Assembly: GCA_021018995.1 (NCBI GenBank)
Contig: CM037588.1
Location: 88,634,765-88,698,764, forward strand
Length of the DNA: 64,000 bases
Reading direction: 5' to 3'
Origin: Chloranthus sessilifolius
Taxonomy: Eukaryota; Streptophyta; Magnoliopsida; Chloranthales; Chloranthaceae
The position numbers and the translations under genes were made by a program. This document shows, piece after piece, positions 18,384-60,410 of this stretch (its first letter is position 1; the number at the start of each line of letters is the position of its first letter). The notes below the pieces were generated by a model. The model saw only the letters and a list, made by a program, of their open reading frames with translations. It made no database searches and was not told where the DNA came from.

Positions 18384-18418
18384 TCACAGACACCTCCCCG
18401 GTAGCGGCGCCAAAAACT
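18384..18418 (-). other. Extra primer-binding-site segment outside the 3' LTR of element D
   Basis: On the minus strand, just beyond the 3' LTR, lies AGTTTTTGGCGCCGCTACCG and then GGGAGGTGTCTGTGA. This is the sequence that normally follows only a 5' LTR, including a tRNA-Asp-type binding site at 18395-18412. It matches the true copy at 26791-26824 and continues past the binding site, so it derives from element sequence rather than from copied tRNA. Confidence 0.85.
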
Positions 18419-20560: not shown

Positions 20561-20575
20561 CACCCCCAAACCTAA
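20561..20575 (-). other. Polypurine tract of element D
   Basis: On the minus strand this reads TTAGGTTTGGGGGTG directly before the LTR start TGTTAAG. The equivalent tract of element B is TTAGGTTTAGGGGTG at 57958-57972, supporting their close relation. Confidence 0.85.
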
Positions 20576-22250: not shown

Positions 22251-23102
22251 TCAAATATATACAAGAGACAAATGAAAAAGAAACTGAAACAACAAATGGC
22301 CACATTCATATACAGCTTGGTGCCAGCTACCCCTTAGATACAGGGGCCTTGCCCTTGGATTTGGATTGCTGAGGTTGTTTTGCGGGTGCCTCCTCAGACT
22401 GGGCAGCAGGTCCTTAAATGTAGCTCCAACAGGTACTCCCTCAGCGCGGTTGGAGTCAAATTGGTATGGGACCCCCAAATCCATTCCTATGTCTCTGTTA
22501 TCGATAATTAGTTGCCAATCATCAATCGAGATCTCTAGTACATCATCAGTCCCTTGTGCCATCTTCTTCTTTAGGTTTTGGTACCATAACTTCACCAACC
22601 TAGGATACATTGATTCTTTCAATGGTGACAGTAGGGGCAACAAGCCTTCTTTCTTCAAATTGCTCAGTGTTTCCTGGCACTCTCCAATGTTGGCAAAATA
22701 TGCCAGATCAAATTCAGTCTCAGGGACAAGGCTCAACTTGTCTACAAATTCATTGGGGGTGGTTAGTATAGCCGGAGGCTCTACAACAATGGGTCTATCA
22801 GGGGTAGCTCTCTCTAAGGGTGTGTCTACCACAGGTTCCTAAATTTCAATAGTTTTGTCTTTCTTAGCTTTAGGACCCTTTTTGGGTGTCTCCTCAGCGA
22901 GCTTCCTCTTTAAAGGCGGTTTGGTAGCAGGTAGCGCTATCTTGGAGGGTTTAGGGGTGGATGCAGTTGATTTCTGGCGTATGCTGGCTAGCGTTTCCTC
23001 AGGCTCATCAATTTTAATCTCAGAGAGTAATTTCTCACCAACTTGGAATGGGAAAACTTTGAAAAACAACAGATTGATGGTAGGAAGGCAACTCACCTCC
23101 AA
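22251..23102 (-). pseudogene. Extra 3' ORF of element D (YPRLV-domain protein, truncated)
   Basis: A Lys-rich N-terminal part (KPPLKRKLAEETPKKGPKAK) is followed by a stop codon near 22840 and then a domain with FDLAYF, LKKEGLLPLL and MYPRLVKLWYQNLKKK. The same order is found in the extra ORFs of B (52109-55251) and A (40576-41866). It matches what I recall as the putative plant transposon protein domain (PF20167); that name is from memory. The frame opens on TTG rather than ATG at 23102, and a GGTGAGTTG donor-like site lies there, so a leader intron is possible. The second half of the domain seen in A and B is missing. Function unknown; the basic N-terminus would suit nuclear or nucleic-acid binding (inference). 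Confidence 0.65.
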
Positions 23103-23340: not shown

Positions 23341-23660
23341 TGAGATTCCGACAGGATGAATGGAATGGTTTCGATAGGTTGATACGTCCTGTCGAAAGCC
23401 TGGAAATCAAAGCTTTCAAAAGGGATGATTCCAAAGGGTTTCGATAAGTGAGACCATCCTATCGATAGGTTTAAATGACAGAAAAAGCATCTTTTCGATA
23501 GGTGCCCGATATGTACCCAGAACCTATCGAAATCTTTGTTTGCCCTTATTTAACCTGTCAAAACATCCAGTGCCTATCGAAACCATTAGATATCCTGTCG
23601 AAATCACCATGTAACGTAACGAAAGGTAGATTTGGCCTATCGAAGGCTCCAAAACCTAGA
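23341..23660 (-). repeat. Internal TTCGATAGG-type motif array of element D
   Basis: About a dozen copies of TTTCGATAGGTT-like motifs in both orientations (CCTATCGAAA, CCTGTCGAAA), matching the array in both LTRs of D but located between the protease and the extra ORF. No coding potential. Confidence 0.9.
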
Positions 23661-26516: not shown

Positions 26517-26800
26517 ACAACACTCACAAACTAAATGGAGAATAACAACAGAAAGAAGCAGCACAACTGACTAATTAATCTAAAAAAAATCAGCAGATCT
26601 AAAAAATAAACAGGGGAAAAAGGAATGCAAACTATAGAGCAGCCTTCAGCACGGCTCTCCTCTCACTTTGTACTCACATCTGATGGAATGCACAACAAAA
26701 ATATTGAAAAATAGAAAAACTTACAAATGCAGTTAGTAAAATCAAACATACAGTTATAGATTTATAAAACAAAACTAGATCTACCAAATTCACAAACACC

Positions 26801-26818
26801 TCCCCGGCAGCAGCGCCA
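26801..26818 (-). other. Primer-binding site of element D
   Basis: The minus strand reads TGGCGCTGCTGCCGGGGA, near-complementary to the 3' end of plant tRNA-Asp (TGGCGCCGTTGCCGGGGA), the primer typical of Athila elements. It is separated from the LTR end by AGTTTT. Confidence 0.85.
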
Positions 26819-27311
26819 AAAACTTGTTGGGTGATTCCAGTGTGCTGATTTATGGTGTGAACATCAAGAGAAAACAGAGATGGGTTCAGCACAGCTGGGA
26901 AATCCTAGACCTGCAAGATATAGGGTCCTTTGTAGTAAGTTTTAAAAGAAGAGGAAGTCCACAGAGAGGTGGTTTGGAATTGAGTAAATCTCCAGATCTG
27001 TAAGAGATCTGACACCCTAACTAATGTTGATCTAGCTAAAAGACAGGGGAGAGATTAGATTGGAGTTTCACTTAATCTAAACTACAATAAAGATGCAGAT
27101 TGTCTTAGATCGAATCTGGAACCTCGGGTCTTACAGATGGAGGGTTTAAAAACTCAGAAAATGGAGAAAAACAGCTTGGAGATTGTTTTCACTATAATCT
27201 GGTTGAGCTAAGCATATTACAGGGATTCAAAAGCACACAAGTCCCTCAGTTGGCCACAAGCACAACTGCAGAGTATAAATTCTACTCCAAATCACAGGAT
27301 CCACCTGGTCT

Positions 27312-27465
27312 TAAGGTTATGATCTATCCACTTCAATGGTCACAAACCATCCTATAGACTTTATCGAATCCATGGATTGCAACAGATGAATCTAATTGAG
27401 GCCTGAGCTTAGATTTACCTTAAGGTTATGATCTGTCCACTTTAATGGTCCCAGACCATCCTAGA
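27312..27465 (-). repeat. Duplicated leader module shared with family B LTR
   Basis: Two copies of a block reading, on the minus strand, GACCATTRAAGTGGAYAGATCATA. It corresponds to TGACCATTTAAGTGGACAGG in the family B LTR. The first copy lies about 510 bp downstream of the TATA box, the same distance as in B (43647 to 44160). It is therefore in the transcribed leader. Confidence 0.8.
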
Positions 27466-28159
27466 GATCTCCTACAAAGCCAGAGCCTCAATTAGAACAA
27501 TTAAAACACTATAGATGCTGTAATTTCTAAGTCACAGATGCAGGAAATTACAAGGATATCAGATCCAGGGAATTTAGATAATATCCAAGATGTCTACCAA
27601 TTAAGTGGGTGAGAAGATCAAGCAACTCCTCTACACAAATCCGATCGAGCACCAAAGGAATCAAAAAAGCTTTAGATCTAATTAAAACATTGAAAATAAT
27701 ATTTATATTGCAAACAAGGTCACTCTTACAATGGAATGCTCTCAGATCTATAGTCTATGTAGCAATTAACCCCAGTAACACTCTTAACCTTACCCAATCA
27801 CAGATCTAACTCACTCCTTGCTGCTCCTAGGGAATTAGCCAACCATGGTTGGGCTAAAGGAAGGAAAATAGAATCTCGCTGCAAACCCTGATCTCTAGGA
27901 AATTGTTCAAAATTTTGATCCTCCCCAATGGCAATTGGGGATCTCTATATATAGCTTTCTCCTCTATTTTTCCCGCCAAAAATCCCTTCTAGAAGGTCGT
28001 CAGAGTTTGTTAGAGTTCTGTTAAAGCACGTGGGTCGGTTAGAGCTTTCTAGGGCATCTTCTAAAACCTCGTGCCAGTCACCAAAGTGCCTCGAGTTGCA
28101 TGCAGTAGGTCATTGAATCACCACGTGTGCGCTGCTGAATTTTTGAGAAGTTCTTCACA

Positions 28160-28690
28160 CAATTTCAACAAGTTTAAGGAACTTTCGATAGGTTGACATA
28201 GAGCTTTTTGGTCCTTTCGCTAGGTTCTCAGAACTGTTCGATAGGTTCTGATAGGATGAGCGTTCACTTAGAGTTCCAGCCTTCTTAGTCTTTGGTTTGG
28301 AGTATTCGACAGGTTGAAAGGACTCTTCGACAGGTTGGAGAACCATTTCAATAGGTTCCTTTCTGCATGCTATCCATTCATTAGGATTGCTCTTACTCCT
28401 ATCGAAAGACTCAATCACCATTCGATAGGTTTTGTTCCAGCACTTTCATCTCGATAGGTTCAAGAACCATTCGATAGGTTCCTTTGACGCTTCAGGTAGG
28501 CTTTCGATAGGATGGTTTCTTCATTTTTTCCCACTGCTCGATAGGTTCTTGGATCTTATCGACCTGCTCTATCCGCAGGAATTCATCCTTCTTCTGCCTT
28601 TTGATCCTATCAAAAACTTCTTTAAGTACATGAATTCTTCCTTTCTTTGCTTTCAGCTCCTATCAAACTCTTCAGGTGACCCATCGATAG
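28160..28690 (-). repeat. TTCGATAGG-type motif array in D 5' LTR
   Basis: Same array as in the 3' LTR: many TTCGATAGGTT and TTCGACAGGTT motifs with inverted CCTATCGAA copies, lying 200-700 bp upstream of the TATA-like sequence at 27945-27954. Confidence 0.9.
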
Positions 28691-29274
28691 GACGTTTTCA
28701 ACCTATTCTCACTTTCTTCACCTTGTCCTGTTGTAGCCACGTGCTCAAAGGGTTCAATGATGTACTACCCTTGGGTGTGCTATTGCTGAGTTCATCCTGT
28801 GCTGAGAGATGGCTCCTTGTTGGGCATTCTTGAGTGCTTTTCTTCATTAGTATCTTCTTTTATTGTTGTCTATAAAATGCCCTTGACAAGGGCTTATTAG
28901 TGTGTTCACAGGTCTATCAATGGTCAGGTTATAGGGTGAAAAGTGACATTTTTCACCACTTAACAACACACGCATTTGATTTCACATGTTAAATCTCAAA
29001 TTTAATTTACACATCACATACACATGTTTGTAACACACACACATATCACTACGCACATGCTATTGTAATCAATAGTACATGTTCAGAACTTTCCTTACCT
29101 CACACAAACATACACCAAAATTCCTCAACTCGAGCTAGCCTTAACATTCAAGGTCCGGCTCAAACCTAATCATAGTCAAAACACATTCAATGTATCAAAA
29201 AGAACGTAAAACAAAGAGTTCTGAAGCCTAGTCACAGTACATAAAGTAAAACTCAACAAAAGCCAGAATCAGCC

Positions 29275-32365: not shown

Positions 32366-34847
32366 TGTAATGTCCCTAAGTTTTGACCATGAACAGTGTG
32401 CCTCGGTGTGCATGCCTGACTGTCCGCACGTTGAAGACCGTGCCAATGGACTTAGTAAGGTATGAAGATTAAATCCTACGGAACGGACTTGGCGAAAGAG
32501 ATGGAATTAGGCTAGGTTATGAGGTTAGTAGACCTTCATATACCTAACATAGGTATATCGGTTTTGCACCAAAGCCTAAGGCTAGGTAAAAGGGGAAATA
32601 AATACCTTGTTAAATTTTTGCTTTCAATAACCCTTTTATTGCTTATCATTTGGAGTTAAGAGGAGAGAGGATGAATCGGGTGTTGAATGCGGATTGAATA
32701 CGAGAACGATTCGTTCTTGAAGTGTGGAACAAAGAGCCTGGTTGAAGAAGAACGAAATGGTGTTCGTCTGGTGAAACCCTAGGCTGCTTTGGAAGTAAAA
32801 ATTGTGGAGATCGGACTAAATTAAGGTATGAAATCTCTGATTAAGTTGTGAAATTGTGTTAGTCGATGTTTTTCCTCATGTATGATCGAAAAATCATAAG
32901 AAATGAAGTCTGATTTGAGAAAGAAAGGAGAACGAATGCGAAAACTCAAGAACAGATGAAATTTGTTAATTTCGACCAATCGAAATTATTTTCGAGCATT
33001 CGAAATGGACTTAAGAAAGAAGAATTTGATTTCAAAGGAAATTTCTTCAATCAAAATTATTTTGATCGAACAAAATGTGTTACGATCTTTCAAAACATAT
33101 ATAACAGAGATTTGTAAATATTGCTGTGGGGATTCGACTGATCGAAATTCTTTTCGATCGATCGAATTTGTGATCCAATCGATCGAAATATAATTTGATT
33201 GATCAAAATTTCAAGGCCAAGTTATGAGTTCTAAGGAATTCGACCGATGGAAATATTTTCGATCGATCGAATTTGTGATTCGTTCGATCAAAATGAAAAA
33301 TCATTTGATCAAACTGTATAGTTGAGGTATTTATTCTATGGACTTCGACCGATCGAAATGAGTTCAATCGATAGAAATTAGGGTTCGATCGATCGAAATA
33401 GGGATTCGATCGATCGAAATTCCCAGATTCGAGACTTTGTTGTGTTTTGGCTAGGAGATTTTGGGGGATCTTTTGTAATATGTTTTGCATCGTTCTGATG
33501 TGTGAACCATGGATTTGATGTGTTTAGGTGAGCTGGTGTCGTGTGATGCAAAACCAACTCATACTGCGGATTGAGCACTTGCGAGCTGAGATTTTGAGGT
33601 AGGGAAAACATAATATCATGTGTATTTAATACATTAGCATGTGTGTTATGTTATGATGCATTCTTTGTTACAATCATGTGAGTTTTATTTACGACTTCGA
33701 ATTGGGAAAGCATGTGCATAAGTATGTTCCAAAATTGTGTAAGATTTGTGGAATCTTTCAAGATTCAATCCGATATGTGTGTGTGAAGATTTATTCAGAC
33801 TTTCAAACTTAGCCATAATAATCACTTTACACGGAGATAAGCTATATGTATGCACCATGATTTAAGGTTTATATGTGAATACCCAATCGACGCGGTAGTA
33901 AAATTGTAACTGGCACAGCAGGATATCAGTGACCGGTATGGCGGTCAATCGGTACACCCTTTGTGCTATGTAATCTTGTGAATCCTACCGTATAACAGTA
34001 AATTATGTTCGGCCAAGTGTCCAACTTTATTGGGACCTTGGATATATGTGAAAATGGTTCATGTGAACGACGATGGTGGGTAATCCATCGGGGGTTCGAG
34101 GTTATAGTTCCTCATGCAATAAATTAAGTAAAGCACTCTTAAGCTTCCTTTCATGTGTTGAGATGAAGATGTGAGCATGTCTTTATGTTTCTCCAAACAA
34201 GTACCATATATGTGTTTCATGCCATGACACTAACAAAAGTGCATATGTTTTGATAAGTTTTGTTTTTATTATGTCATAAGATATATGTTTGATGTTTATG
34301 ATACGCATGCTGTAAGCTTCTCCCTACTGAGCTTGAATGAAGCTCATTCCTCGACTAAATGTCACAGGTTCAGGTGAAGGCGTAGGAGCCGAGATTTTTG
34401 AGAGGGAAGATTCAGATTATTCTCTTGGGAGGGAATTAAAAGAAATCCATCCCGAGGATTGTTTCCTTTGCGCTAGGCCCGGTATGTCCAGCCTTAGGTT
34501 GAAGGACTAGTGTCATTTAGTCTAATGTAAAGGATATGTATTAATTAGAATGATGAATGATATTCTTTTTGGTGAACCATGTTTCAGTAAGGAAGGGTCC
34601 TTACCAGTAGTTCTTGTCGGTTCTTTTTCCATAGATATTCGTATGGAATTAGAACCGTCATTTTGAGCTTTTGGTGGATAAAACTAGTACCTCCTCCTTA
34701 TTTTTTTTATGTTAGCTAGCTAGCTATTGCTCTGCTTTATTTATGTTGTGCGAATGATATGCCACAATGTGTGTTGTTTGCGGTTCGGCCTTTGGGTAGA
34801 CCCACTGACGGTGCGGGTTTCGGGGTGCCGAAATCTGGGCTGTCATA
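32366..34847 (+). mobile_element. 5' LTR of element A
   Basis: 2482 bp from TGTAATGTCCCTAAG to GGGCTGTCATA (the last CACA of the family reads CATA here). It holds the TCGATCGA array (32967-33420) with an embedded TATATAA near 33098-33104, conserved as TATATAA near 60734 in the 3' LTR. The rest is non-coding. Confidence 0.9.
32967..33420 (+). repeat. TTCGATCGATCGAAAT motif array in A 5' LTR
   Basis: About fifteen copies of the 16-bp palindromic motif TTCGATCGATCGAAAT and variants (TTCGACCGATCGAAAT, TTTCGATCGATCGAATT), with 10-40 bp spacing. The same array occurs in the 3' LTR (60607-61001) and inside the element (39922-40327). Confidence 0.93.
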
Positions 34848-34849
34848 GT

Positions 34850-34861: not shown

Positions 34862-34972
34862 TTACGGCTTTAGAGACATCTAACAAATCTTAAACCGTTT
34901 AGGGATTGAGATTTTGTTGGATATTATGGACTGTTTGTTAATGAGACTTTTGTTTCATTGTAACAGATTCTA

Positions 34973-36269: not shown

Positions 36270-36391
36270 GTATAATCTTCTTGTCATGTTTAAATTATTT
36301 ACTTACCTTCTAGATGAAGAAAGTGCATTGATAGGAAGATTTAGGTTCATTTTGCTGATTATCTGAATGTTTAGTATATGTATTTATATAG
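36270..36391 (+). other. 122-bp intron-like segment between gag and protease of element A
   Basis: The segment begins GTATAATC and ends TTTATATAG, with GT-AG borders and AT-rich content. Coding upstream ends DVIQ plus one base; coding downstream resumes in the right phase (GMFLLYQ), giving the uninterrupted D-V-x-x-G-x-F-L-L reading normal for chromovirus gag-protease junctions. Read through, the segment contains several stops. Confidence 0.65.
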
Positions 36392-36861
36392 GTATGTTTC
36401 TATTGTATCAAGAAAACGACGACGATCATTGTGAAGCACGAGTTCTAATAAACCCATGGTCTACCCAGTTGTTCGTAACTCCAAAATTTGCTAGGAAATT
36501 GAAAATCATTCTTGAGGAGTTAGATTTCATTCTAGATGTGTTAGTTCCTATGGGAAGCACGGTAACCATAGACACTTGTTGCCGATCAGTTATTGTTCAA
36601 GTGGAGGATGAAGAGACCATCACAGATCTCATCTTGTTGAACATGCAAGGGTTCGACACACTCCTTGGCATGAATTGGATATCCACTTATCATGGAAGCG
36701 TTGATTGCCTAGGAAAAGTAATCACTTTTCGTCCACCAAAACAAAAATCCTTCTTGTTTATCGGCGATAAGGGCAAGATAGTACTGATCGTCTCTGCAGT
36801 GCGAGTTGAGCACATGATAAAGAATGGATGCGAGGGATACCTAGCATTCCTACAAGAATAG
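36392..36861 (+). pseudogene. Protease of element A (active site lost)
   Basis: The frame contains ARVLINPWSTQLFVTPKFA, aligned to the usual L-I-D-P-G-S-T active site of retropepsins. Asp has become Asn and Gly has become Trp, so the protein could not cut. It continues with LVPMGSTVTID and LILLNMQGFDTLLGMNWISTYHGSVDCLGKVITF, standard for the protease-RT linker of this clade. Open for 157 codons despite the dead active site, ending at 36861. Confidence 0.85.
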
Positions 36862-36874
36862 AAGGAGATGAAGA

Positions 36875-38225
36875 ATGTCATCACCGATATTCCGATTGCC
36901 TGTGAGTTTGAGGACATATTTCCTGATGAATTACCAAGAGATTGAATTTGCAATAGACTTACCTCCAGGCATAGAACCAGTCTCCAAAGCCCCCTATCGA
37001 ATGGCTCCTACCGAGTTGAAGGAGTTGAAGGAGCAATTACAAGAGCTGTTAGATAAGGGCTTCATAAGACCAAGTGTGTCCCCTTGGGGAGCATCGGTCT
37101 TATTTGTGAAGGACGGGTCAATGAGACATTGCATCGACTATCGTCAATTAAAAAAACTAACGATTAAGAACAAGTATCAATTACCCAGGATCGACAATTT
37201 GTTTGACCAGTTGCAAGGGGAAAAATTCTTTACGAAGATTGATTTGAGATCCGAGTATCATTAGTTGAGAGTGAAGGCCGAAGACGTTCAGAAGATGGCA
37301 TGCAGAACTAGATACGGGCATTACGAGTTCTTAGTGATGTCGTTCAGCTTGACGAACGCACTAGCTTCGTTTATGGACCTCATGAATAGGGTCTTTAAAC
37401 AACGTCTTGATACATGCGTAGTGGTGTTCGTGGACAATATTCTTATTTACTCAAAGACCAAAGAAGAACACGAACAACATTTTCACGTCTCTTTGCAGAC
37501 TCCACATGAGTATCAATTAGATGCCAAACTTAGCAAGTGTGAGTTATGGCTAGAACAAGTGAGTTTCCATGGCCACGTAATTTCAGAAGCTAGCATCACA
37601 GTTGATCCGGCGAAGATCGAGGCAGTAGTAGATTGGGATCAACTAAAGACTGTGACAGAGATTCACAGTTTCCTCGATCTAGCTGGGTATTATCGACGAT
37701 TTGTGGAAGGATTCTCCAAGATTTTAGGACCACTCACGCGACTTACGAGAAAGAATGTTAAAATTGAGTGGACCAGTGAATGTGAAGATAGCTTCCAATA
37801 CCTCAAGAAATGGCTTACCTTTCCTCTAGTGTTGGCTATTCCATTAGGTAGAGGGGGATTTGCTGTTTATAGTGATGCGTCATATGGTGGTTTGGGCTGT
37901 GTATTGAATTAGAATAGTACGGTCATAGCCTATGGATCAAGACAGTTGAAAGAGCACGAGAAGAACTATCCGACGCATGATTTAGAGCTGGCCACGGTGA
38001 CTTTTACGCTTAAGATTTGGAGGCATTACCTATTTGGTGAGACCTTTGAGATCTTCAAAGACCACAAAAGCCTCAAGCACCTATTTACGTAGAAAGAATT
38101 GAATATGAGGCAATGGCAGTAGATTGAATTTCTCAAGGACTACGACTGCACTATCCAGTATCACCTAGGTAAAGCAAACATCATGGAAGACACGTTGAGT
38201 AGGAAGAATGCAACTCAGTTGGCTA
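36875..38225 (+). pseudogene. Reverse transcriptase and RNase H of element A
   Basis: Blocks in order: [68 protein letters not shown] then a TAG stop at 37262 where Gln is usual, YGHYEFLVMSFSLTNALASF, and FVDNILIYS (about 37430), where the second catalytic Asp of the x-x-D-D box is Asn. Connection and RNase H follow (GYYRRFVEGFSKI, FAVYSDASYGGLG, then [10 protein letters not shown] and NIMEDTLSR) with further stops at 37910 and 38090-38122. It copied element RNA into DNA when alive; this copy cannot. Confidence 0.92.
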
Positions 38226-39759
38226 GTCTCATTACGGGACTTCGACGATGGAAACTATTGGAAGACCTTTCTTTGTACGATAACAATATAGAGGTCAAGG
38301 ATTCTGGTGTGTTGTTGGCAAATATTACAATTAAACCCACAATTTTTTATCGCATCTACGAACTACAAATGAAAGACGCAAAGCTCGTAAAGATCCGACA
38401 AGGAGTGACTGTCGGTACAAGTGGGGATTTTTCTATCAAAGAGGATGGATCATTGCTATTTTGTGGATGACTATGCATACCTATTGATGCCGAGTTGAGG
38501 CAGACTATATCGGACGAAGCTCATAAGTCCAAGTATGCCATTCATCCTAGTGGTACTAAGATGTACCAAGATTTACGGAAGAGCTATTGGTGGAGAGGAT
38601 TGAAGAAAGACATTACTGAATATGTGTCAAAATGTCTGGCGTGTCAGCAAGTAAAGGTGGATCACAGACACCCAGCAAATCTCTTGCAACCTCTGCCAAT
38701 ATCGGAATGAAAATGGGAGTCTATCTCCATGGACTTTATTGTGGGATTACCAAGGACAATGAGGCGCCACAATGCTATATGGGTAATAGTGGATCGACTG
38801 ACACAGTCGGCTCACTTCCTGCCCTACAACACGACATACACTGTAAGTAAATTGGTGGATTTGTATATGAGAGAAATTGTCTGACTATGCGGTATTCCGA
38901 CAAGCATAAAATCTGATCGTGATCTATTATACACCTTGATATTCTAGCAAAGATTTCAAGAAGTTATGGGCATGAGATTGGACTTTAGTTCGGCATTCCA
39001 TCTGCAGACTGATGGTCAGACGGAGGGAGTCAATCAGATTATTGAAGATATGCTCCGAGCGTGTATGATTGATTTTTAGGGATCATGGGATCAACATCTC
39101 CTGTTGATTGAATACACGTATAATAACAGCTTTCAGCAGAGCATTGGGATGGCTCCATATGAAGCGCTATATGGACAGAGGTGTAGATCTCCGATCAACT
39201 GGGAGGAATCAAGAGAAAAGTTCATATTGGGCCCAAAAGTCATTAAGAAAAATGCTGAGACTATTCGTATTATAAGGGAAAGAATCAAGATGACATAGAG
39301 TCGGCAGAAGAGCTATGCGGATATCAAGCGATCGAGCATGGATTTTCAAGTGGGAGATCACGCATTTGTAAAGATATCTCCAATGAAGGGTGTGATGCAC
39401 TTTAGAAAGTGTGAAAAGCTGAGTCCTCACTACATTGGACCGTTTGAGGTATTGGGAAGGGTTGGTGAAGTTGCATATAGGATCGCATTATCCTCGTAGC
39501 TTGATAGAGTGTACGACGTGTTTCAAATTTTTATGTTGCGAAAATACGTGAGGGACCCAACTCATATCCTCGATGCACCACCAATTGAAGTCTATAGGGA
39601 TTTGACAGTCATAGAAGAACCAATGAAAATTTTAGACTAAACCGAACAAGTGTTACGCACAAAATGGATTCCCTTGGTGTTGGTCCAACGGAAGAATCAC
39701 TCAAAAGAGGAAGCTACATGGGAATGCGAAGCAGAGATTCGTGACTAGTACCATTCATT
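38226..39759 (+). pseudogene. Integrase of element A with C-terminal chromodomain-like tail
   Basis: Zinc-binding region near 38520-38660 (YAIHPSGTKMYQDLRKSYWWRGLKKDI and CLACQQVK). Catalytic core follows: MDFIVGLPR, IKSDRDLLYT and HLQTDGQTEGVNQIIEDML, then TYNNSFQQSIGMAPYEALYGQRCRSP. GPY/F-like module (PHYIGPFEVLGRVGEVAYRIAL) near 39427-39500. The tail (MKILD...EQVLRTKWIPLVLVQRKNHSKEEATWECEAE, about 39625-39735) resembles the chromodomain of plant chromoviruses, thought to steer integration to particular chromatin. Stops at 38708, 38881, 38946, 39078 and 39297 inactivate it. Confidence 0.9.
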
Positions 39760-39921: not shown

Positions 39922-40327
39922 TTTCGATCGATCGAAATAATTTTTAATTGATTGAATATGATTTCGATCGATCAAAGTGTAAACTGATCGATCGAAATGA
40001 CCAAATAGAAGAGTCATATTTGTTAAGTTAAGGCTTAAGAATTTCGTTCGATCAAATTAATTTTTGATCGATCGAATTTGAAATTCATTCGATCAAATTT
40101 AATTTCGTTCGATCAAAAATTTTAAAGGCCAGACGTCACCTGAGAAAATCTGATCAATCAAAATATTTCTCGTTCGATCGAATTTAGTGTTCGACCAATC
40201 GAAATCGTAACTTAGATCAGCTTAAGACAAGTTCGATCGATCAAAAATAAATTCGATCGATCGAAATCGCCATTCCATTCACTTAAATGAATTTCAATCG
40301 ATCGAAATCAATTCAATCGATCAAAAT
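39922..40327 (+). repeat. Internal TTCGATCGATCGAAAT array of element A
   Basis: About fifteen copies of TTTCGATCGATCGAAAT-like motifs and variants, same family motif as in the LTRs but in the spacer between integrase and the extra ORF. The last motif ends at 40327, nine bases before a TATA-like sequence. Confidence 0.93.
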
Positions 40328-40335
40328 GCAGAGTC

Positions 40336-40344
40336 TATATATAT
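40336..40344 (+). promoter_or_regulatory. TATA-like box upstream of A extra ORF
   Basis: TATATATAT immediately after the internal array and 240 bp before the ATG at 40576. The leader in between contains a possible intron (donor AGAG/GTAATG near 40485, acceptor TATAAAG near 40550). An internal promoter is inferred. Confidence 0.55.
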
Positions 40345-40575
40345 GAAATGAGATTTTTAGTTCTAAAAGTTAAAAAAATTTGGGGGTTTCCGCTTAGGGC
40401 TTTCGTGGGTTTTCTTTTGAAGGATCAAATGACTGTATGATTGCATGTGGATTCTTCACGAAATCAAATCCAAACTTCTTCAAGAGGTAATGCCCTAAAT
40501 TCTTTCGTCAATTTCCCATTTAATCTGTCTATTTGTGATTGATTATAAAGAAACCCTAGATTTTCTTGTTAAGCC

Positions 40576-41866
40576 ATGGCCCCTAAGAAAAAGTCAGCAT
40601 TAAGACTGACCACGTCTAAGAAATCTAAACCCACATCAGGTTCTTCACAACCACCACCACAACCGCCACCAAACCCTCCACCACAATCCATACCTAAGCC
40701 ACAAGCTACTTCTCAAGCAGCACAACCCGATCAGCCGAAGGAATGGTGGGCCGATAAGGGGTTTGCTTACATGTATACTATCGATCTGGCCTTATTTGAG
40801 ACACCCAACGTGCCCGATATAGAAGCTTGGGCACTAGACTACTTGAGCAAGGCCGAGTTGGATAATCTTTTGAAGCCCCTCCATCAATACTACTACCCGC
40901 GCCTTGTGCGACTCTTTTATCAAAATATGTTTGATGGCCCAAACCCTAAAAACACCATTTACAGCAAGATTGACGGAAAAACCTATGTTTTTACCCATCA
41001 GATGGCCGGTAAAGCTTTGGAGTGTTTCGATGGGTATGGCCTCGGAATTGATTTATTGCCTCCAAACCCTAGTGATCTAACCCGTGATTTCATAATAGCA
41101 AAAATGACTTAGGGTCGTGTTGCACCTGGTCGAGCGATTAGATGATCCGACTTGCTGAGCTATATGTGGATGGCCAACATAATTTTTAAATGCAACTTGT
41201 ACCCAATTCACCATAAAACCGAGAGGTTAGGGGTATTAATGCAGGCACTATTTTCCGCATTCGAAGGGCGGTAGTTTAATTCTGCAGAAGTTGTGTTTCA
41301 GGGTAAGAAGCATGGGAGAGTGAAAATGTTAGACAGGGTGGACAAGGCAGAGGAGTTCATTCCATATGCGGGCCTCATTTCTGCCATGTTCGAGGAGTAT
41401 TCGGCGAGTGCCCCAAGTGCCTCCTATCCCTCCTCAACCTTAAGATGTGGCTGCTCAGTATGTGCTAGAGCATGACCAACCAGGTCCAAAGATCCCTCTT
41501 CAAGATCAACCTGAGGTCATCCTTCCACCACCTCAGGTAGACTACGTGCAGATACCCCCACCCCATCATCAAGCAGCTCTTATGACCAACAAGGAGTTGG
41601 CTGCTCTCATACATGAGAGTAATCGCCAACTTAACCAGTGCCTTGATTACCACGAGCTGCTAGTGGAGGACACTCTACACGCGATGTACCCTATGAATTA
41701 CCTCCAGAGGATGGTGATCATGCGCGCACGGGTGTTCGACACTTCTACATCAGGCACTGATACTGAGGACCAACAACCTAATGAGCCAGCCGATGAGGGT
41801 CGAGCCGATGACGAGACGGAGGGTGCGGGCGATCCTACCGGACTGGCAGAGGGAGCTGACGCTTGA
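40576..41866 (+). pseudogene. Extra 3' ORF of element A (YPRLV-domain protein)
   Basis: ATG at 40576; MAPKKKSALRLTTSKKSKP is a basic, nuclear-signal-like start, followed by a Pro/Gln-rich segment (residues 24-52), then LSKAELDNLLKPL and YYYPRLVRLFYQN (residues 105-117), KIDGKTYVFTHQMAGKALE and a stop at 41112. Beyond it the domain continues (LLSYMWMANIIFKCNLYPIHHK, 41160-41215), then an open acidic C-terminus (41447-41866, rich in Asp/Glu/Pro). Segment order matches the extra ORFs of B and D, from a different retrotransposon lineage. As recalled, the domain is the putative plant transposon protein family (PF20167). Molecular role unknown. Confidence 0.75.
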
Positions 41867-42293: not shown

Positions 42294-42707
42294 TGTAATG
42301 TCCCTAAGTTTTTACCATGAGCAGTGTGCCTCGGTACGCGTGCCTGACTGTCTGCATGCCGAAGACCATGCCGATGGACTTAGTAAGGTACGAAGATTAA
42401 ATCCTATGGAACGGATTTGGCATAAGAGATGGAGTTAGGCTAGGTTATGAGGTTAGTAGACCTTCATATACCTAACATAGGTATATCGGTTTTACACCAA
42501 AGCCTAAGGCTAGGTAAAAGGGGAAATAAATATCTTGTTAAACTTTTGCATTCAATACCCCTTTTATTGCTAATCATTTGGAGTTAAGAGGAGAGAGGGT
42601 GAATCGGGTGTTGAATGCGGATTGAATACGAGAACGATTTGTTCTTGAAGTGCGGAACAAAGCGCCTGGTTGAAGAAGAACGAAACGCTATTTGTCTAGT
42701 GAAATCC
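42294..42707 (+). mobile_element. 3' LTR of element A, left part
   Basis: 414 bp collinear with 32366-32783 of the 5' LTR. It ends at the AATCC half of the target duplication (42703-42707) of element B. Confidence 0.93.
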
Positions 42708-42944
42708 TAAGACCTGAAAAGTACCACTTTTCACCCCTTAACTTAATCTCTGTTGGACCCTTAATCATTTAATAAAAGTGTTTTAAGCCTGTTCTGTAGG
42801 TAATGAACAGCAGCTGCAATAAGGCCTTAATCCTGCTAAGGAGCCCACTTTTACCCCAGAAGTCTCTCAGAAGAAGGGAAGCTGGATCCAGACAAGAACT
42901 TGACTGCATGAAGGCAAAGCACAGCAGCAACAGAGCAAGAAATG

Positions 42945-43465
42945 AGCCTCGCACAGTTGCCGCCCAAAGGATTTAGAAAGAAAGCCTCGTGCAGTCCTCG
43001 CGAGTTTCCCAGGACTTCATACCAATTGTCCGCGCTATTCTCGTGCAGTTTAGTGACAGAAGGGCTTCAGAATCAAAACCGCGCGCAGTTCACTCAAATA
43101 AGCTGAGGAGAGAGAGCTCCAGGTAATTCTGTGTGCAGCTGTCGCGCAGTGGCCGCGGGATGCAAAACCTCAGAAAAACCTCTCGCACAGTTCAGAGGTC
43201 AATGCACATCACGCCCTCGCGAGGATCCTCGCGAAGATCCATTGAGAAACAAACTGCTCGCGCGATTCTCGCGCCATTCAGAAGGAAAGTGCAATCCCGC
43301 GAAGACGAGAGCAATCCAGCAAGGATTCAATGCTCTATCGCGCGACTGCTTAAGCTGCAAACTAAGACAACCCCGCGACGACTAGAATTTCAATTTAATC
43401 TAATCTCGCGAAGACCATGCTACAACGTGACAGTCTTGGAAACCAGTGCTACCTGGCGAGGCTCT
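42945..43465 (+). repeat. CTCGCGA-type motif array in B 5' LTR
   Basis: Many CTCGCGAGG, CTCGCGCGATT, CCGCGAAGAC and TCGCGCAGT motifs, 180-700 bp upstream of the TATA box. The 165-codon-scale ORFs that cross it in the three LTR copies are translations of the repeat, not genes. Confidence 0.88.
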
Positions 43466-43646
43466 GGACTCTAACTCTCCCCCACTTCTGCAGAGGATAT
43501 TCTGTGAACTTTCAGTAATTAGGGCACACACTACAATGCTCTAATTTCTGTGCACGAGCTCTGAGGCATCCAAGGAACAGTATTAGGCCATGTGGCATCG
43601 TTAAAATTAGGGTTTCCTAACCTTAATGCGCCGCCAAACTGACTGC

Positions 43647-43654
43647 TATATAAA
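43647..43654 (+). promoter_or_regulatory. TATA box of B 5' LTR
   Basis: TATATAAA in the conserved context CTGCTATATAAACCTAAGCC, present in all three family B LTRs. Confidence 0.8.
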
Positions 43655-43988
43655 CCTAAGCCTGGTTTAGGTTTAAGGGACCTCTCTTAGAATAGAATTT
43701 CTTTTGTCTATCTTCTTCTTGCAGTAGCTGTAGATCTCTAGTAAGATTTAGGTAGATTTCTTTTTACTTTTCCTTCTCTCCATAGCCCAGCACTTGCTGG
43801 CTATGCCTCTGTATGCTTATTTGGTTTATATTGAATGGAATTTCATGATTGGGTGTTTTACATGTATGGGATTGAAGTTTGAGATTGAATTGTTCTGTAC
43901 AAGGCTGCTGCCTTGAGATCCTCCATTGATAGGTTGTATTATGAGCAATGGAGGACTATTTTTTTAGACCTATTTAGATCCAAGTGAC

Positions 43989-44640
43989 CTGTGTGTCTGG
44001 GCTAACATGCTCCCATACAAGCCTAGCCCCACCACAGAATCCACTAGATCTGAAATCCCCATGGGAGCCTGAGCTTGTAGCCTTGTGAACATGGTGGTGA
44101 CAGCATTGTTCTTGTTCTGTTTTGGTCCTCTGTGAGGAGGATAGCCTCTAGGATAGTCTGTGACCATTTAAGTGGACAGGTTATAGCCTTAGGGTGAGGC
44201 CAATCCACAGATCCAAGACAGATTCTTCTTCTCTGCACTTGTGCTTGTAGCCCTGTGAGAGATTGTGCAGAGACAAACTCCCTTGTATTTGTATAGACCC
44301 GCCATCAGATGGCAGATCTGGTTTGGTTATAAAGATTATAGGCTTGTGACTAGATCCGTCTTTCTGACAAAGGACACTAGACTGAGTGTGACTCAAACTC
44401 TTCGGTTCTATGTGTCTGGGCTAACATGCTCCCATACAGGCCTAGCCCCACACATAGCACTTTAGAGGTTGAGGTTCCCTATGGATTCTTGTGCTTATAT
44501 CCTGGATGAAGTAGTGCTTACAATCATTGACTTGTTCTGACCCATCTCTGGACTGTGGTTCCCCAATTGGATAGTTTGTGACCATTTAAGTGGACAGGTT
44601 ATAGCTATAAACAGATTAGATCATGGCACAGAGATGAGTT
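43989..44640 (+). repeat. Direct duplication in the B LTR leader
   Basis: The block GGGCTAACATGCTCCCATAC (about 43998 and 44417), then later TGACCATTTAAGTGGACAGG (about 44160 and 44579), occurs twice about 420 bp apart. It is downstream of the TATA box and so in the transcribed leader. The second block is also doubled in the LTR of element D. Confidence 0.85.
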
Positions 44641-45130
44641 GGATTCTTTCTCCTCAGTGGTGATAATGTTGCCATTGGACAAGACTTCTATAACAACAGA
44701 CCTGAATTTGAGTCATGAAACCCATCAGATCTGAACCTAATAGCATACTTCTCACCCCTTTTATATTTATTTTCCCACTCCATCCGTTTTCTCAACCCTT
44801 CCTATTGTTTAGACATTAAGTTACCTTTGAATTTAGAATTTAGTGACCTTAAATCCCCTTCCATTTAGGATTGCCAGATCTGTAGTCAGATCTGGAGAGC
44901 CTACTAATGATGGATCCCTCGAAGCTTTAGATCAACTTTCCCTGTGGGACAAACTCTTACTTATCAAAACTTGCTACAATAGGCCCTGTATCTTGCAGGA
45001 CTGTGCATATTTTAGGCTTGCTGCTCCGTAATCATCACTCTACCTTTCACTCATTTTTTATTTACCCCACTCTTATCACTGTCTCCAATAAAGTTAGTAG
45101 CAAGCACTTAAAAATATCCCAACAAGTTTT

Positions 45131-51446: not shown

Positions 51447-51863
51447 TCTGGGAGACTATCGCGAGATTCAAAAGCTATCGCGAGGTTAAAAATGAAGCCT
51501 GGGAGACTATCGCGCTATTCAGTTGTTCTCACGAGATTATCAGGCTGTCGCGAGGTTCACAAGGTAAACTGGGAGACTCTCACACAATTCAACAGAAATA
51601 CTTCGTTTCCTATCGTGACATTCTAAGTCTGTCGCGAGATTCAAAAATGAACCTCAAAGCTTTTCACGCAATCTAAAAGAAACCTAGGAGCCACTCGCGT
51701 GATTCACATGAATTAATCTCACTCTATCGCGCGCTCCAAGGATAACTTGAGAGATTGTCGCGTAATCCTGATTAAATCCACACCTTTGCTAGGATCATTT
51801 CTAAGCCCGCGACCAGATGTTTCAAAGCGCGCCAAGCTTCGCGATAAGTATTTCAACCCCGCG
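51447..51863 (+). repeat. Internal CTCGCGA-type motif array of element B
   Basis: Repeated ATCGCGAGATTCA, GTCGCGAGGTTCA, CTCGCGTGATTCA and similar motifs, about fifteen copies, often preceded by GGGAGACT. Same core as the LTR array. It ends about 246 bp before the ATG of the extra ORF at 52109. No strong TATA box follows it. Confidence 0.9.
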
Positions 51864-52108: not shown

Positions 52109-55100
52109 ATGGCTCCAAAATCTATACAGAAGAGAAAAGGGAAGGACAAGGACCCTGCAGAGCCCCCCCTAAAAAGGCCAAGACATCAAAGTCCCTCAAA
52201 AAAGGAAAGGAAGTGGTTGAGGAGGCGGCGGTACCAACCACAAAGTTCTCTACTCCTTCTAAGCTCCTAGAGTCAATTCCATTGGAGCCTGAAATAGCCT
52301 TTGATGTACCATTTTTTGAATAAGAACCTCTCTCTGCCCCTGCAATACAATTTCTGAGAAAAGCGGGCCTGATGCCATTGATGAGAGGAATTCCAGCACT
52401 AGCCTACCCCAGGCTAGTGCAGCTGTTTTATCAGCACATCAAGGTCAAGAGGGACAATGATGGACAAGGGTGCTTGCTGGTAATGATTGACGACTTTGAT
52501 ATGTTAGTAGGCCCTAAGATGATCGCTGAAGTGTTGGGCATCCCAGTAGCATTCAATCCAAACTGTGGATATGGCCCCCCTTCTGACAGCATCGATTGAT
52601 ACAATTGCAGTAGCCCTAACTAGAGGATTAAAAGCTATCAGGGACTCAATCAGAAGGAGGGACCTAGAACCTGAACTACTGTTCATTGACCAAGTCCTGC
52701 GAAAGAACATATATTGCTCCGGACATCAGCAAGAAAGGAGAACCCCCATTTCAGATGCTCTCTACTCCTACCACATGGGTCATGGCTTCCATGCAGCCTG
52801 GCTGATTTTTGAGGCTATGAAGGATGTGGTGGAGAAGTTAGGATCGAATAAGAAGCCTCACATGCTACCCTATGCAAGAATCATCACCTTGCTGCTGATA
52901 AAGGGGGCTACAAGATAGGAAGGACTGAGCAGACCACCACCCTTACGCCTACTACCTTTCCAAAGAGGCAATGGGGAATCAGCAAGAGCTTGATGGGGGG
53001 TCAAAAAAAGAAGAAAGTTGAGGCTCAGGCCATGCCCAAGCAAGCAGAAGCAGCTGCCTTAGGGTCTACCCCTACTAAAAAGGAGTTGCCCCCAGAGCCT
53101 ACCACTTCCATAGTTGCAGCAGCACATGTTACCCCTGCATCCACCCCCCCTCTTGCATCCCTCTCTCACCCCCTCTGTTTCCATTCTCCATGCCCACTCC
53201 CCCTTCACCTGTGCTTGGTCCATGGGAGGACTCACCATCCCCTACCTTACCTCAGTACACAGCCACAATTCCCCCATCATTTCCACCTAAGCCTGCCAGC
53301 CCCCCACTCATCTGATACAAAAACCGAAAAACCACTGAGACCATTCCAACCATCTCCCAGACACCACCCTCAATCCCTTCTATCCCCATTGACCCAACCC
53401 ACCTTGAAGAAACCACCACCCCAGCCATATCTACTACATCCCCTCTCCCTGACATTACCTTAACCCTTAACACATCCATAGGCTTCCAAGCCTTCATCTC
53501 CACCTTCCTTGAAACCTGCCTACCTCCTGTACCCCTCTGCCAGACTCCCCAACTACCTCCCAGCACCACTCCCCAGAACCCCACTCTTCCCCTCCCTCCA
53601 CTTTCCATCATGCTCCTTCCTCCCCTTTCCAACTAGTACCCTCTTCTTCCCAAACCCAACCTCCTAGCTTTGACACACTAACCCTCATCCTACCCCTTAT
53701 CCACGACATACAAGCCCAGTTATCCACCAATACCCAAAAACAGGACCAGATGTAAGTTGAATTCACCTCCATCCAATCTACCCTACACACCTTAACCACT
53801 CCACCCATCCCTCCCCCATCCACTTCACCCCCCCTGGTCTTATCCAAAGACAGATGACACAAACAGACTTCCCCCACTCATTCCCCCACCTTCACCATTA
53901 ACTCCTACCCACCCATTTCCTTTAATCCCTTTCACAATTCTCATTTTCCATCCCCCATCACCCCCAACTCCTATTGAACCTACACCCTTTTCCTTTCCCC
54001 TATACCCTCCACCCCCTCTTCCCTACCCCCACCTTCTCTACAAATCCACCCAAAGCAGACCCAGCACCCATTCCCCCATAACTTGATTTCCCTACTATCA
54101 TCCCCCCTCCCCCCCTAGGACCAAGCACAATCTGCTCCTTCCACCTCCTATCTTCCCATTATGCCAAAACATCATTTTTACAGCCCCCCCTACCTCACCA
54201 TCCTCCACCAAATGAGAGATAATGCATACCTGAGGAAGGATGTCCTGAGGGGCATGGCCAAGCTACGCCAATCAATTGAGACCCCCCTGCTGGAGCAGAT
54301 TGATAAAATGATGAGGAGGAACAAGACTCTTGGGCATCTCATTGGGGTGGACAAACATTTTGGACTCCTACCAAAAGGCCAAGGCTATAGCTACTTATCA
54401 TCAGATCAATTGGGAATATGAGAAATCAAATGCTGCTGCAGCGAATGCCCGAGCGCGAATGCTTGAAAAATGACTTAATAATGCCCAGGAAATCCAAAAA
54501 ATCTAAAAGGAGATCCATGAGACTGATTCCCTCAAATTTCAAATCAAGATAGCCTCATTAGAATACGCATTGACTACTACCCGTAATGAACCTTACCATC
54601 CGACCTACATCTCTATTCACGTGCCTGCGCCTACGCCAACTACTACTCCAGCTCCACCTGCCCAGTCTGAGGAGGCACCACCTCAGCCCTAAAAAGCCAA
54701 AGGAAAAGCTCCTGCTTCACCTCCTAAGGAGCAGCCTCCATCTACTGAGCAACCTACCCCTACCACGGCCTCTGCTGAACTACCACAGAAGCAAACTTAT
54801 CCTCAACGGAGGAAAGTCACTGCTAAGAGGTCTGCTCCTAAAGCTGTCCCTATAAAATTGGCAAAGAGCCTACCGCCCAATCTGAAGAGGCACAGTTCCC
54901 TGCCAAACCTGAGACCATTGGTAAAGGAAAGTCACCAGTGGTCCCCACTGAGGAACCCCAAGCCAAAGGAAAAGAGAAATCCCCAGTGGTCACACCTGCA
55001 GAAGCTGAAGCCAAATGCAAAGGCAAAGGAAAATCCCCTGCCACCCCCCTGCTAAGCGCAAAGGAAAAGCCCCTCAAGAACCCAAGGAACCAAAGGCTCC

Positions 55101-57972: not shown

Positions 57973-60410
57973 TGTTAAGACCTAAAAAGTACCACTTTTC
58001 ACCCCTTAACTTAATCTCTGTTGGACCCTTAATCATTTAATATAAGTGTTTTAAGTCTATTCTGTAGGTAATGAACAGCAGCTGCAATAAGGCCTTAATC
58101 CTGCTAAGGATCCCACTTTTTGCCTAAGTCTCTCGGGAAAGAAGGAAATTTGGATCGCATAAGAACTTGTTGCATGAAGGCAAAGCACAAAGACAACATA
58201 GAGCAAAGAAATGAGCCTCGCCTGATTACACTTGAAGGATTCAAAGGATTCAAAAAGAAAGCCTCGTGTGGTCCTCACGAGTTTCCCAGGACTTAATACC
58301 AATTGTCCATGCTATTCTCGTGTAGTTTAGTGACAGAAGGGCTTTAGAATCAAAACCGTGCGTAGTTCACTCAAATAAGCTGAGGAGAGAGAGAGAGAGA
58401 GCTCCAGGTATTTCTCCGCGTAGTGGCCGCGGGATGCAAAACTTTAGAAAAACTTCTCGCACAATTCAAAGATCAATGCACATCACGCCCTCGCGAGGAT
58501 CATCGTGAAGATCCATTGCGAAACAAATTGTTCGCGCAATTCCCACGCCATTCAGAAGGAAAGTGCAATCCCGCGAAGACCAGAGCAATCCAGCGAGGAT
58601 TCAATGCTCTATCGCTCGACTGCTTAAGCTGTAAACTAAGACAACCCCGCGACGGCTAGAATTTCAAGTTAATCCAATCTCGTGAAGACCGTGCTACCAT
58701 GGGACAGTCTTAGAAACCAGTGCTACCTAGTGAGGCTCTGGACTCTAACTCTCCCTCACTTCTGTAGAGGACATTCTAGGAAATTCTAGCAATTATGGCA
58801 CACACTCCAATGCTCTAATTTTCATGCACAAGCCCTGAGGCATCCAACGAATAGTATTAGGCCACGTGGCATCATTAAAATTAGGGTTTCCTAACCCTAA
58901 TGCGCCGCCAAACTGACTGCTATATAAACCTAAGCCTGGTTTAGGTCTAAGGGACCTCTCTTAGAATAGAATTGTTTTTGTCTGTCTTCTTCTTGCAGTA
59001 GCTGTAGATCTCTAGTAAGGTTTAAGTAGATTTTTTTTTGCCTTTTCTTCTCTCCATAGCCCAGCACTTGTTGGCTATGCCTTTGTATGCTTATTTGGTT
59101 TAGATTTAATAGAATTTCATGATTGGGTGTTTTACATGTATGGGATTGAAGTTTGAGATTGAGTTGTTCTGTACAAAGCTGCTGCCTTGAGATCCTCCAT
59201 TGATAGGTTGTATTATGAGCAATGGAGGACTATTTTTAGAGACCTATTTAGATCCAAGTGGCCTATGTGTCTGGGCTAATATGCTCCCATACAAGCCTAG
59301 CCCCACCACAGGATCCACTAGATCTGAAATCCCCATGGGAGCCTGAGCTTGTAGCCTTGTGAACATGGTGGTGACAACAATGTTCTTATTCTGTTTTGGT
59401 CCTCTGTGAGGAGGATAGCCTCTGGGATAGTCTGTGACCATTTAAGTGGACAAGTTATAGCCTTAGGGTGAGGCCAATCCATAGATCCAAGACAGATTCT
59501 TCTTCTCTGCACTTGTGCTTGTAGCCCTGTGAGAGATTGTGCAGAGACAAACTCCCCTGTATTTGTATAGACCCGCCATCAGATGGCAGATCTGGTTTGG
59601 TTATAGAGATTGTAGGCTTGTGACTGGATGACTGCAGTCTTTCTACAGTAGTGGATAGCTAGACCTAAGGCTGTACTCAAACTCTTGCTGGATTTATGTG
59701 TCTGGGCTAACATGCTCCCATACAGGCCTAGCCCCATGCATAGCACTTTAGAGGTTGAGGTTCCCTATGGATTCTTGTGCTTGTAGCCTGGATGAAGTAG
59801 TGTTTACAGTGATAGACTTGTTCTGACACATCTCTGGACTGTGGTTCCCCAATTGGATAGTCTGTGACCATTTAAGTGGACCGGTTATAGCCATAAAGGG
59901 ATTGGATCATGGCACAGAGATGAGTTGGATTCTTTCTCCTCAGTGGTGATAATGTAGCCATTGGACAGGACTTCTATAACAGCAGATCTGAATTTGAGTC
60001 ATGAAACCCATTAGATCTGAACCTAATAGCATATTTCTCACCCCTTTTATATTTATTTTCCCACTTCATCCATTTTCTCAACCCTTTCTATTGTTTAGAC
60101 ATTAAGTTACCTTCGGATTTAGAATTTAGTGACCATAAATCCCCTTCCATTTAGGATTGCCAGATCTGTAGTCAGATCTGGAAAGCCTACTAATGATGGC
60201 TCTCTAGAAGCTTTAGATCAACTTTCCCTGTGGGACAAACTCTTACTTATCAAAACTTGGTACAACAGGCCCTGTATCTTCCAGGACTATGCATATTTTA
60301 GGCTTGCTGCTCCGTAATCATCACTCTACCTTTCACTCATTTTTTATTTATCCTACTCTTATCACTGTCTCAAATAAAGTCAGTAGCAAGCACTTAAAAA
60401 TATCCCAACA
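57973..60410 (+). mobile_element. 3' LTR of element B
   Basis: 2438 bp with intact ends TGTTAAGACC ... ATATCCCAACA, collinear with the 5' LTR and the solo LTR. It contains the CTCGCGA array (about 58213-58745), TATATAAA (58921-58928) and the duplicated leader block. Confidence 0.93.

Follow-up and report, generated by a model that had tools for sequence, protein, structure and literature searches.

Motif arrays shared by the LTRs and the spacer before a 3' accessory gene in three Ty3/gypsy retrotransposon families of Chloranthus sessilifolius: a probable second promoter

Introduction

The closest described counterpart of the arrangement reported here is the RM box of the Sireviruses, a palindromic motif that, according to the accessible text of Bousios et al. 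2010 (PMC2829016), occurs in many copies in the LTR before the TATA box. The same text records copies in the linker, 77 of 79 of which lie 5' of the env-like gene, and such copies are found in nine RM elements with an env-like gene and in none of four without it. The repeats form CpG islands and an internal promoter was proposed; splicing, stop-codon suppression and an internal promoter are named there as proposed routes for expression of the env-like gene. The motif was termed Sirevirus-specific, being absent from the classic retrotransposons with which it was compared (accessible text of PMC2829016).

Several other systems share parts of this plan with three LTR retrotransposons, elements A, B and D, that we describe from a 64,000-nucleotide stretch of C. 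sessilifolius DNA, hereafter the window. VANDAL likewise combines short family-specific motifs, repeated in non-coding regions, with an accessory protein, as far as the available sections of PMC5735166 go, but it is a Mutator-like DNA transposon with vanC, whereas LTRs, RT and integrase pieces are found here; VANC binding and demethylation have been shown in VANDAL. The Athila-type 3' additional ORF with Transposase_32 described in the available text of PMC11728184 resembles ours in its 3' position, PF20167-like core and basic stretch like a nuclear signal; the Tekay extra ORF of that text lies on the 5' side, unlike the 3' ORF of the Tekay-like element A, and no array is mentioned in it. Grande gene23 (PMC7264820) is likewise a 3' accessory gene, with its own promoter and separate transcription, but it is antisense, and the accessible part of that paper does not mention an array shared with the LTR. 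Retand, in the accessible part of PMC11963269, has tandem repeats between pol and the 3' LTR, so that repeat arrays lie in one region with an additional protein that may bind DNA, but its ORFs are antisense and no shared LTR motif is mentioned there.

Results

Organization of the window

Self-comparison of the window showed that the 3' LTR of element A, which is of the Ty3/gypsy type, is split by the nested element D.

32366..34846, + strand: 5' LTR of element A, ends approximate (self-comparison)
34850, + strand: primer-site-like TGGTATCAGAGC of A (sequence match)
36367..39496, + strand: protease (RVP_2), RT, RNase H, integrase zinc finger and Tf2-1-like SH3 pieces of A, frame-broken (Pfam on separate pieces)
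42294..42709, + strand: first part of the A 3' LTR, cut by the nested D (self-comparison)
60410..62431, + strand: second part of the A 3' LTR, including the array at 60607-60999 (self-comparison)
42708..45125, + strand: 5' LTR of element D, with TCGCGAGATTC-like sites at 42995-43414 (self-comparison and motif search)
57976..60411, + strand: 3' LTR of element D (self-comparison)
18384..20563, − strand: LTR-like copy of element B, with a GAACCTATCGAA-like array at ~19758-20288; the match runs past the LTR into a primer-site-like stretch (self-comparison)
26790..28969, − strand: other LTR of element B, overrun likewise (self-comparison)

At 42709/60410, where D was inserted in the A 3' LTR, the two LTR parts overlap by ~8 bp, as a target-site duplication would give. 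The domains of A run in the order PR-RT-RH-IN, with RVP_2 and a Tf2-1-like SH3 (Pfam), and no Pfam match to a chromodomain was found in its broken frames behind the integrase. We take TGGTATCAGAGC to be a primer site of the tRNA-iMet type and, on the assumption that an RVP_2 protease, a Tf2-1-like SH3 and a tRNA-iMet primer site serve as Tekay markers, A is probably a Tekay-type chromovirus. Both B and D have Retrotrans_gag matches (Pfam) and a 3' ORF with the YPRLV region. Against the string that we presume to represent the tRNA-Asp primer site, B shows 2 mismatches of 18, and D has no match within 3 mismatches and one with 4 by eye; both elements are filed, with less certainty, as Athila-like.

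The part of B between 22251 and 26063 (− strand) has retained gag and protease as well as the array and the extra ORF, and since only ~400 bp separate the protease from the array, RT to integrase are absent. Larger gag-to-ORF deletions that retain the extra ORF occur among the relatives, for instance in L089 of B and in L020 of A. Primer-site-like stretches (2 mismatches; 18395-18412 and 26801-26818, − strand) stand, in the sense of the element, behind both B LTR copies, and instead of a plain 3' LTR the copy at 18384 could be the 5' LTR that belongs to another element in tandem. Another D-family LTR, possibly a solo LTR, lies at 2369-4800 in pieces that are 82-91% identical. The D 5' LTR contains an internal duplication of ~200 bp (43989-44187 and 44408-44605, 75% alike), the first part of which also matches the D 3' LTR likewise, and two direct copies of ~238 bp (11567-12054, 83% alike) lie outside elements A, B and D.

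Motif arrays in the LTRs and interiors

With up to 2 mismatches, TTCGATCGATCGAA has 33 matches in the window compared with a shuffle mean of 0.07, and 32 of the 33 fall in the two LTRs of A or at 39923-40325.

32971..33418, + strand: LTR array of A, 15 sites at up to 4 mismatches (motif search)
39923..40325, + strand: internal array of A, between integrase and extra ORF, 15 sites, with gaps of 19-21 bp or ~2-3 times that (motif search)
40336..40344, + strand: internal TATATATAT, 10 bp behind the last array site (sequence search)
40345..40575, + strand: leader from the TATA box to the ATG of the extra ORF (sequence reading)

At up to 4 mismatches, the second part of the A 3' LTR holds 15 sites (60607-60999) and the first part 0, and two stray matches lie outside the internal array (39323 and 40416). 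The initial annotation had described about fifteen palindromes in each A LTR and a separate internal array, followed by TATATATAT at 40336 and the extra-ORF ATG at 40576; our counts of 15, 15 and 15 sites agree with this, and both positions are correct.

A motif was learned from the LTR of each element alone and then searched in the interior of that element at a threshold of 10. The A motif gave 15 internal sites, 0 in gag-pol and none elsewhere in the A interior; the B motif gave 9 sites at 23347-23602 (− strand), 0 in gag-PR and 2 weak ones elsewhere (22567 and 22845); and the D motif gave 7 sites at 51456-51705, 0 in gag-pol and 2 elsewhere (55578 and 55640). Shuffled spacers reached at most 3 sites per spacer with the LTR-trained motifs of A, B and D at this threshold.

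23347..23644, − strand: internal array of B, between protease and extra ORF, with TATATA at 23325-23330 (LTR-trained motif)
51456..51737, + strand: internal array of D (LTR-trained motif)

The enrichment of the motif in LTR and spacer that had been anticipated is borne out, the LTR-trained motifs picking out the internal array in three of three elements with no site in gag-pol. The annotation had also held that B and D follow the plan of A with other motifs, and this stands as regards an array in the LTR and again before the ORF, but not in two details: no TATA box follows the internal array in the window copy of D, and the B and D motifs (GAACCTATCGAA and TCGCGAGATTC) are not full palindromes. 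All three motifs contain CpG, and A and B have an ATCGA core in common. The motifs are largely family-specific, those of A and B being hardly present in other elements; the exception is one B LTR in which the D motif matches five times with 2 mismatches. The two extra D-type sites at 55578-55653 lie beyond the D extra-ORF region, near proline-rich open frames at 52852-53463 and 55695-56159.

A TATA box also accompanies the sites in the LTR of A.

33098..33104, + strand: TATATAA 3 bp behind a 4-mismatch site, inside the A LTR array (sequence reading)

Of 9 A LTR arrays taken from 7 elements, 6 contain a TATATAA that follows one of their sites at a distance of 3 bp, a raw count that excludes L004 and L008 with only 6-7 sites, and the remaining three arrays have altered versions at that position. 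Three stretches, representing two loci (L006 and L018; L028), have a second TATA candidate, TATAAAAAGGGA, upstream of the array, so that part or all of the A LTR array may be behind the start site. In the B and D LTRs, TATATA-type boxes lie, by eye, ~210-235 bp behind the arrays. The order of sites and then TATA appears to be used in both LTR and interior, and either of the two candidates may be the TATA that serves the A LTR.

Relatives in the same genome

The genome from which the window comes (2.17 Gb) was searched for relatives; copies of one family in it are related and not independent. A 35-base pattern from the A LTR gave 41 matches, and the surroundings of 29 of them were read, in 58 stretches of ~4 kb. 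The integrase end and the extra ORF occur together in 12 of the 58, or in 13 stretches with the window, and by raw count an array of 11-20 sites is present in 12 of these 13; in 9 of the 12 a TATA box lies within 40 bp behind the array (not in L018, L028 and L063). The sole array-less case, L029, lost integrase end and array together. These counts leave out L037, which is cut by the stretch end, and L044, with an integrase piece at 73% and without a match to the ORF. L020 and L089 were rejected as exceptions to the array rule, the region having been lost by internal deletion, as were L056 and L038, which are interrupted by other LTR sequence.

To avoid a bias from choosing copies by their LTR, we also searched with the A ORF, scoring 150 of 36,765 loose candidates and reading about every seventh of the 150, which gave 20. 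Array and extra ORF, which the annotation had expected to go together, co-occur in 20 of 20 A, 11 of 12 B and 12 of 12 D copies chosen by ORF (from 150 listed in each case), in raw counts for A and with shuffle controls for the LTR-trained, B and D searches. The A arrays have 11-19 sites, and their lattice recurs whole or in part with gaps of 20, 20, 20, 60, 20, 21, 20, 34, 19, 22, 20, 43, 20, 42 and 19. In raw counts, taken without a chance control, 17 of these 20 A copies have TATATA or TATAAA no more than 40 bp behind the last site, 16 of them at 6-13 bp and L083 at 26 bp, and no such box was found within that distance in L076, L081 and L086. The array end is 244-255 bp from the ORF start in 14 of the 20 (range 189-311 bp). 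The B arrays have 7-12 sites; the array region is deleted in the one exception, L089, and, again as a raw count, a TATA box stands at a common position in 10 of the 12 copies, L096 having the array without the TATA. The D relatives, scored at a lower threshold of 8 at which shuffles gave at most 2 sites, have 6-11 sites with gaps often of 19, 30-33 or 61-66, and none of the 12 copies read has a TATA box behind the internal array. Taken with the window, these copies make it likely that the internal array is the enhancer of a second promoter, which uses the motif of the LTR and from which the 3' accessory gene is transcribed separately.

Phasing, conservation and composition of the arrays

The A sites are phased at 10.5 bp, both in the internal array (R 0.78, reached by 0 of 5000 jittered sets) and in the LTR array (R 0.67, reached by 4 of 5000). 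Phasing in B is no better than chance, the LTR value being reached in 731 and the internal value in 940 of 5000 jittered sets, and in D it is weak (316 and 134 of 5000, respectively). Phased palindromes followed by a TATA box would suit any dimeric factor, and a host transcription factor, rather than a protein of the element, may read the arrays in both places, a possibility to which we give slightly less than an even chance. The CpG in all three motifs and the ATCGA core common to A and B are compatible with such a factor, as is the report, in the accessible text of PMC2829016, that sites of stress-related factors were the main matches of the Sirevirus RM boxes; on the other hand, to have three different motifs read, one genome would have to supply three host factors or a single loose one.

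Within the A arrays the 14-mers are 79% alike, a value inflated by site choice, and the flanking six bases on each side are 33-44% alike, compared with 32-35% expected from composition. That the spacers are unlike while the sites are alike counts against simple unit duplication, which would keep the spacers alike too. Across ten A copies (the window and nine LTR-found ones) motif columns are 79% alike versus 59% for spacer columns, 158 sparsely filled columns inside the array being excluded. When the window copy alone was used to define the sites, nine A comparisons gave 76-85% likeness for site columns and 42-69% for spacers. The sites are thus better kept even though they contain much CpG, which tends to be lost quickly. 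These alignments indicate that selection is acting on the A sites. Site columns of D are no better kept than the rest (0.71-0.91 versus 0.80-0.92).

Array units have been gained or lost in whole steps of ~20 bp, with the spacing kept, in A copies L012, L015, L018, L028 and L034. Such gain and loss of whole units between copies is what neutral tandem-repeat growth, as in the 3' regions of other plant retrotransposons, would produce, and about half of the recently active Retand elements carry tandem repeats between pol and the 3' LTR (accessible part of PMC11963269). We nevertheless disfavor this explanation as highly improbable, given that the A spacers are near background identity and the sites are not, that one motif occurs in LTR and spacer yet is absent from gag-pol, and that the lattice is kept between A copies of which 11 of 15 have an ORF dS above 1.

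Observed/expected CpG ratios in the arrays are 2.6 and 3.0 in A (maximum 3.02), 0.94 and 0.99 in B and 1.19 and 1.31 in D, compared with 0.11-0.73 in the other parts measured, and the A values are reached despite a GC content of only 0.31-0.32. Both tested A arrays and the B internal array fold as RNA far better than shuffles (z −6.3, −5.7 and −7.1), the D LTR array folds weakly (z −2.0, 4 of 100 shuffles being as good), and the B LTR and D internal arrays fold no better than shuffles (z −0.7 in each). The arrays might act as RNA or methylation structures, either as hairpins that feed small RNAs or as CpG clusters for or against silencing, and the strong folding of the A arrays and of the B internal array is in line with this, as is the description of Sirevirus palindromes as small-RNA hotspots in the accessible text of PMC5311732. 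However, with two arrays at chance and a third weak, folding is not a common property, and the register of the TATA box and the phasing of the sites would be left unexplained; we regard this reading as improbable. A slower decay of CpG in the arrays was not significant in A, B or D singly (pooled p 0.04).

The accessory protein

In the window the extra ORFs of A, B and D are present as pieces.

40576..41112, + strand: N-terminal 178 aa of the A extra ORF, with basic N-terminus, YPRLV region and a weak PF20167 match (15.2 bits); stop at 41110 (Pfam)
41444..41866, + strand: C-terminal piece of the A extra ORF in another frame, with acidic end (translation)
22251..22838, − strand: B extra ORF piece with the YPRLV region, no Pfam match by itself (YPRLV match)
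52109..52915, + strand: D extra ORF, frame-broken, with ATG at 52109, YPRLV at 52324-52596 and a PF20167-like part at 52550-52915 (18.1 bits) (Pfam)

The YPRLV region is common to the A, B and D proteins. An unbroken relative, L112, is 492 aa long and consists of a basic N-terminus (7 K/R and 0 D/E in 24 residues), a proline-rich stretch, a PF20167-like core and an acidic end whose last 32 residues include 11 D/E and 0 K/R. It matches PF20167 (Transposase_32) with 27.2 bits (E 4.1e-6) over profile positions 4-172 of 177, below the curated score of 45 bits, which is reached neither by L112 nor by the A and D pieces of the window, and B has no match. The "basic YPRLV-domain protein" of the initial annotation is correct as to the YPRLV region and the basic N-terminus, but the C-terminus is acidic and the window ORF is broken by the stop at 41110.

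In 15 copies of the A ORF dN/dS is 0.09-0.35 (pooled 0.19), compared with pooled values of 0.08 (3 copies), 0.12 (11 copies) and 0.19 (11 copies) for integrase pieces, and these ratios indicate that the extra ORF is under purifying selection. The ORF dS exceeds 1 in 11 of the 15 copies, and the dS of the integrase pieces is lower (0.16-1.96). A search of a large protein database gave no relatives for the window piece or for the 492-aa L112, and viral contigs held no relatives of the motif pair, the A RT piece or the D RNase H piece. Structure prediction for the window ORF piece and two relatives gave a model of no use, with a mean pLDDT of 48. The one solved-structure match to L112, a designed binder (E 0.043), was taken as chance.

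As the initial annotation suggested, the accessory protein might itself bind the array of its own family in LTR and interior and so activate or de-silence its own element, as a retrotransposon counterpart of VANC, which would be a stronger form of the promoter reading. In each of the three families the protein is accompanied by a motif peculiar to that family; the basic N-terminus, proline-rich stretch, PF20167-like core and acidic end of L112 form an activator-like layout; and VANC offers a precedent in which short motifs stand in tandem repeats of non-coding regions (accessible text of PMC5735166). Neither structure prediction nor the solved-structure search with the accessory protein gave a DNA-binding fold, however, and neither A nor B nor D shows a significantly slower decay of CpG within its arrays (pooled p 0.04), and we hold this form to be possible but unlikely. 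Across 20 copies the A proteins are down to ~65% identical with the motif unchanged, which carries no weight for or against self-recognition.

Discussion

The array plan is real and general in this genome for three families, and it is probably functional. The initial proposal of an LTR-like promoter or protein-binding module in front of a 3' accessory gene is well supported by the arrays in 20 of 20 and TATA boxes in 17 of 20 A copies, by the conservation of the A sites and by selection on the A ORF. The family motif stands in the LTR and in the spacer before the ORF in all three families; A has in addition a conserved lattice, a TATA box whose distance from the array is nearly fixed and leaders that are similar in length, and B has a TATA box at a fixed place. 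Against the promoter reading stand D without TATA and with sites that are not favored, the chance-level phasing of B and the weak phasing of D.

Array, TATA box and leader keep their order and spacing between A copies, and together they would serve the accessory gene as a second promoter, governed by the regulator that also acts on the LTR. A dimeric DNA-binding protein would occupy the A sites along one face of the helix, transcription would start ~30 bp behind the internal TATA box, and the common motif would hold genomic RNA and accessory mRNA under one regulator, which could be a host factor or the accessory protein; D would have a TATA-less version of the promoter. That the internal module is a wholesale copy of the LTR is contradicted by sequence comparison, in which, motif aside, the internal leader and upstream sequence show no significant similarity to the LTR (scores reached by 17, 51, 63, 144 and 94 of 200 shuffles). 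Among the internal leaders themselves, the A-D score was reached by 3, the B-D score by 1 and the A-B score by 130 of 200 shuffles.

With the Sirevirus RM boxes, as the accessible text of PMC2829016 presents them, elements A, B and D share a motif cluster in the LTR and again 5' of a 3' ORF, and CpG-rich arrays (observed/expected 0.94-3.02 here, although GC is only 0.31-0.32 in A). A TATA box after the cluster is found here in 17 of 20 A and 10 of 12 B internal arrays and, inside the array, in 6 of 9 A LTR arrays; in the B and D LTRs it lies ~210-235 bp behind by eye, and the D internal array has none. The RM elements are Ty1/copia, whereas A, B and D are Ty3/gypsy, and a CGG-CCG core is present in all RM motifs but Tnd-1, whereas TTCGATCGATCGAA, GAACCTATCGAA and TCGCGAGATTC have other cores. 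The low-GC arrays of A, with their phased lattice of ~20 bp and a TATA box 6-13 bp behind the last internal site, and the incomplete symmetry of the B and D motifs are further differences from what that text describes. Hence, as judged from these comparisons, A, B and D appear to work like the Sirevirus RM elements but are not members, two defining features, the Ty1/copia backbone and the CGG-CCG core, being absent. The plan has already been published for the Ty1/copia Sireviruses, a closest precedent that the initial annotation did not mention, and what appears to be new here is its presence in Ty3/gypsy elements, with other motifs and, in A, a phased lattice; searches of the open-licence literature found no report of it in Ty3/gypsy elements, which is a weak negative.

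By analogy with VANC, one may go further and picture a feedback cassette of an accessory protein and a family array, phased in A, that stands in the LTR and before the protein's own gene; in it the protein would switch on or de-silence only its own family, and the cassette would have arisen at least twice (in Sireviruses, and in Tekay and Athila) beside the VANDALs; we consider this rather unlikely. The ORF protein and its own motif do provide a named pair for self-recognition.

How the 3' accessory or env-like genes of plant retrotransposons are expressed, and what they do, is an old open question, for which these elements offer a concrete, numerous and testable case: in this single genome each of the three ORF searches began from 28,000-37,000 loose candidates, and 150 per search were scored. 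For the promoter reading, A provides a conserved enhancer-TATA unit, and a plan thought to be special to Sireviruses is also present, with other motifs, in Ty3/gypsy elements.
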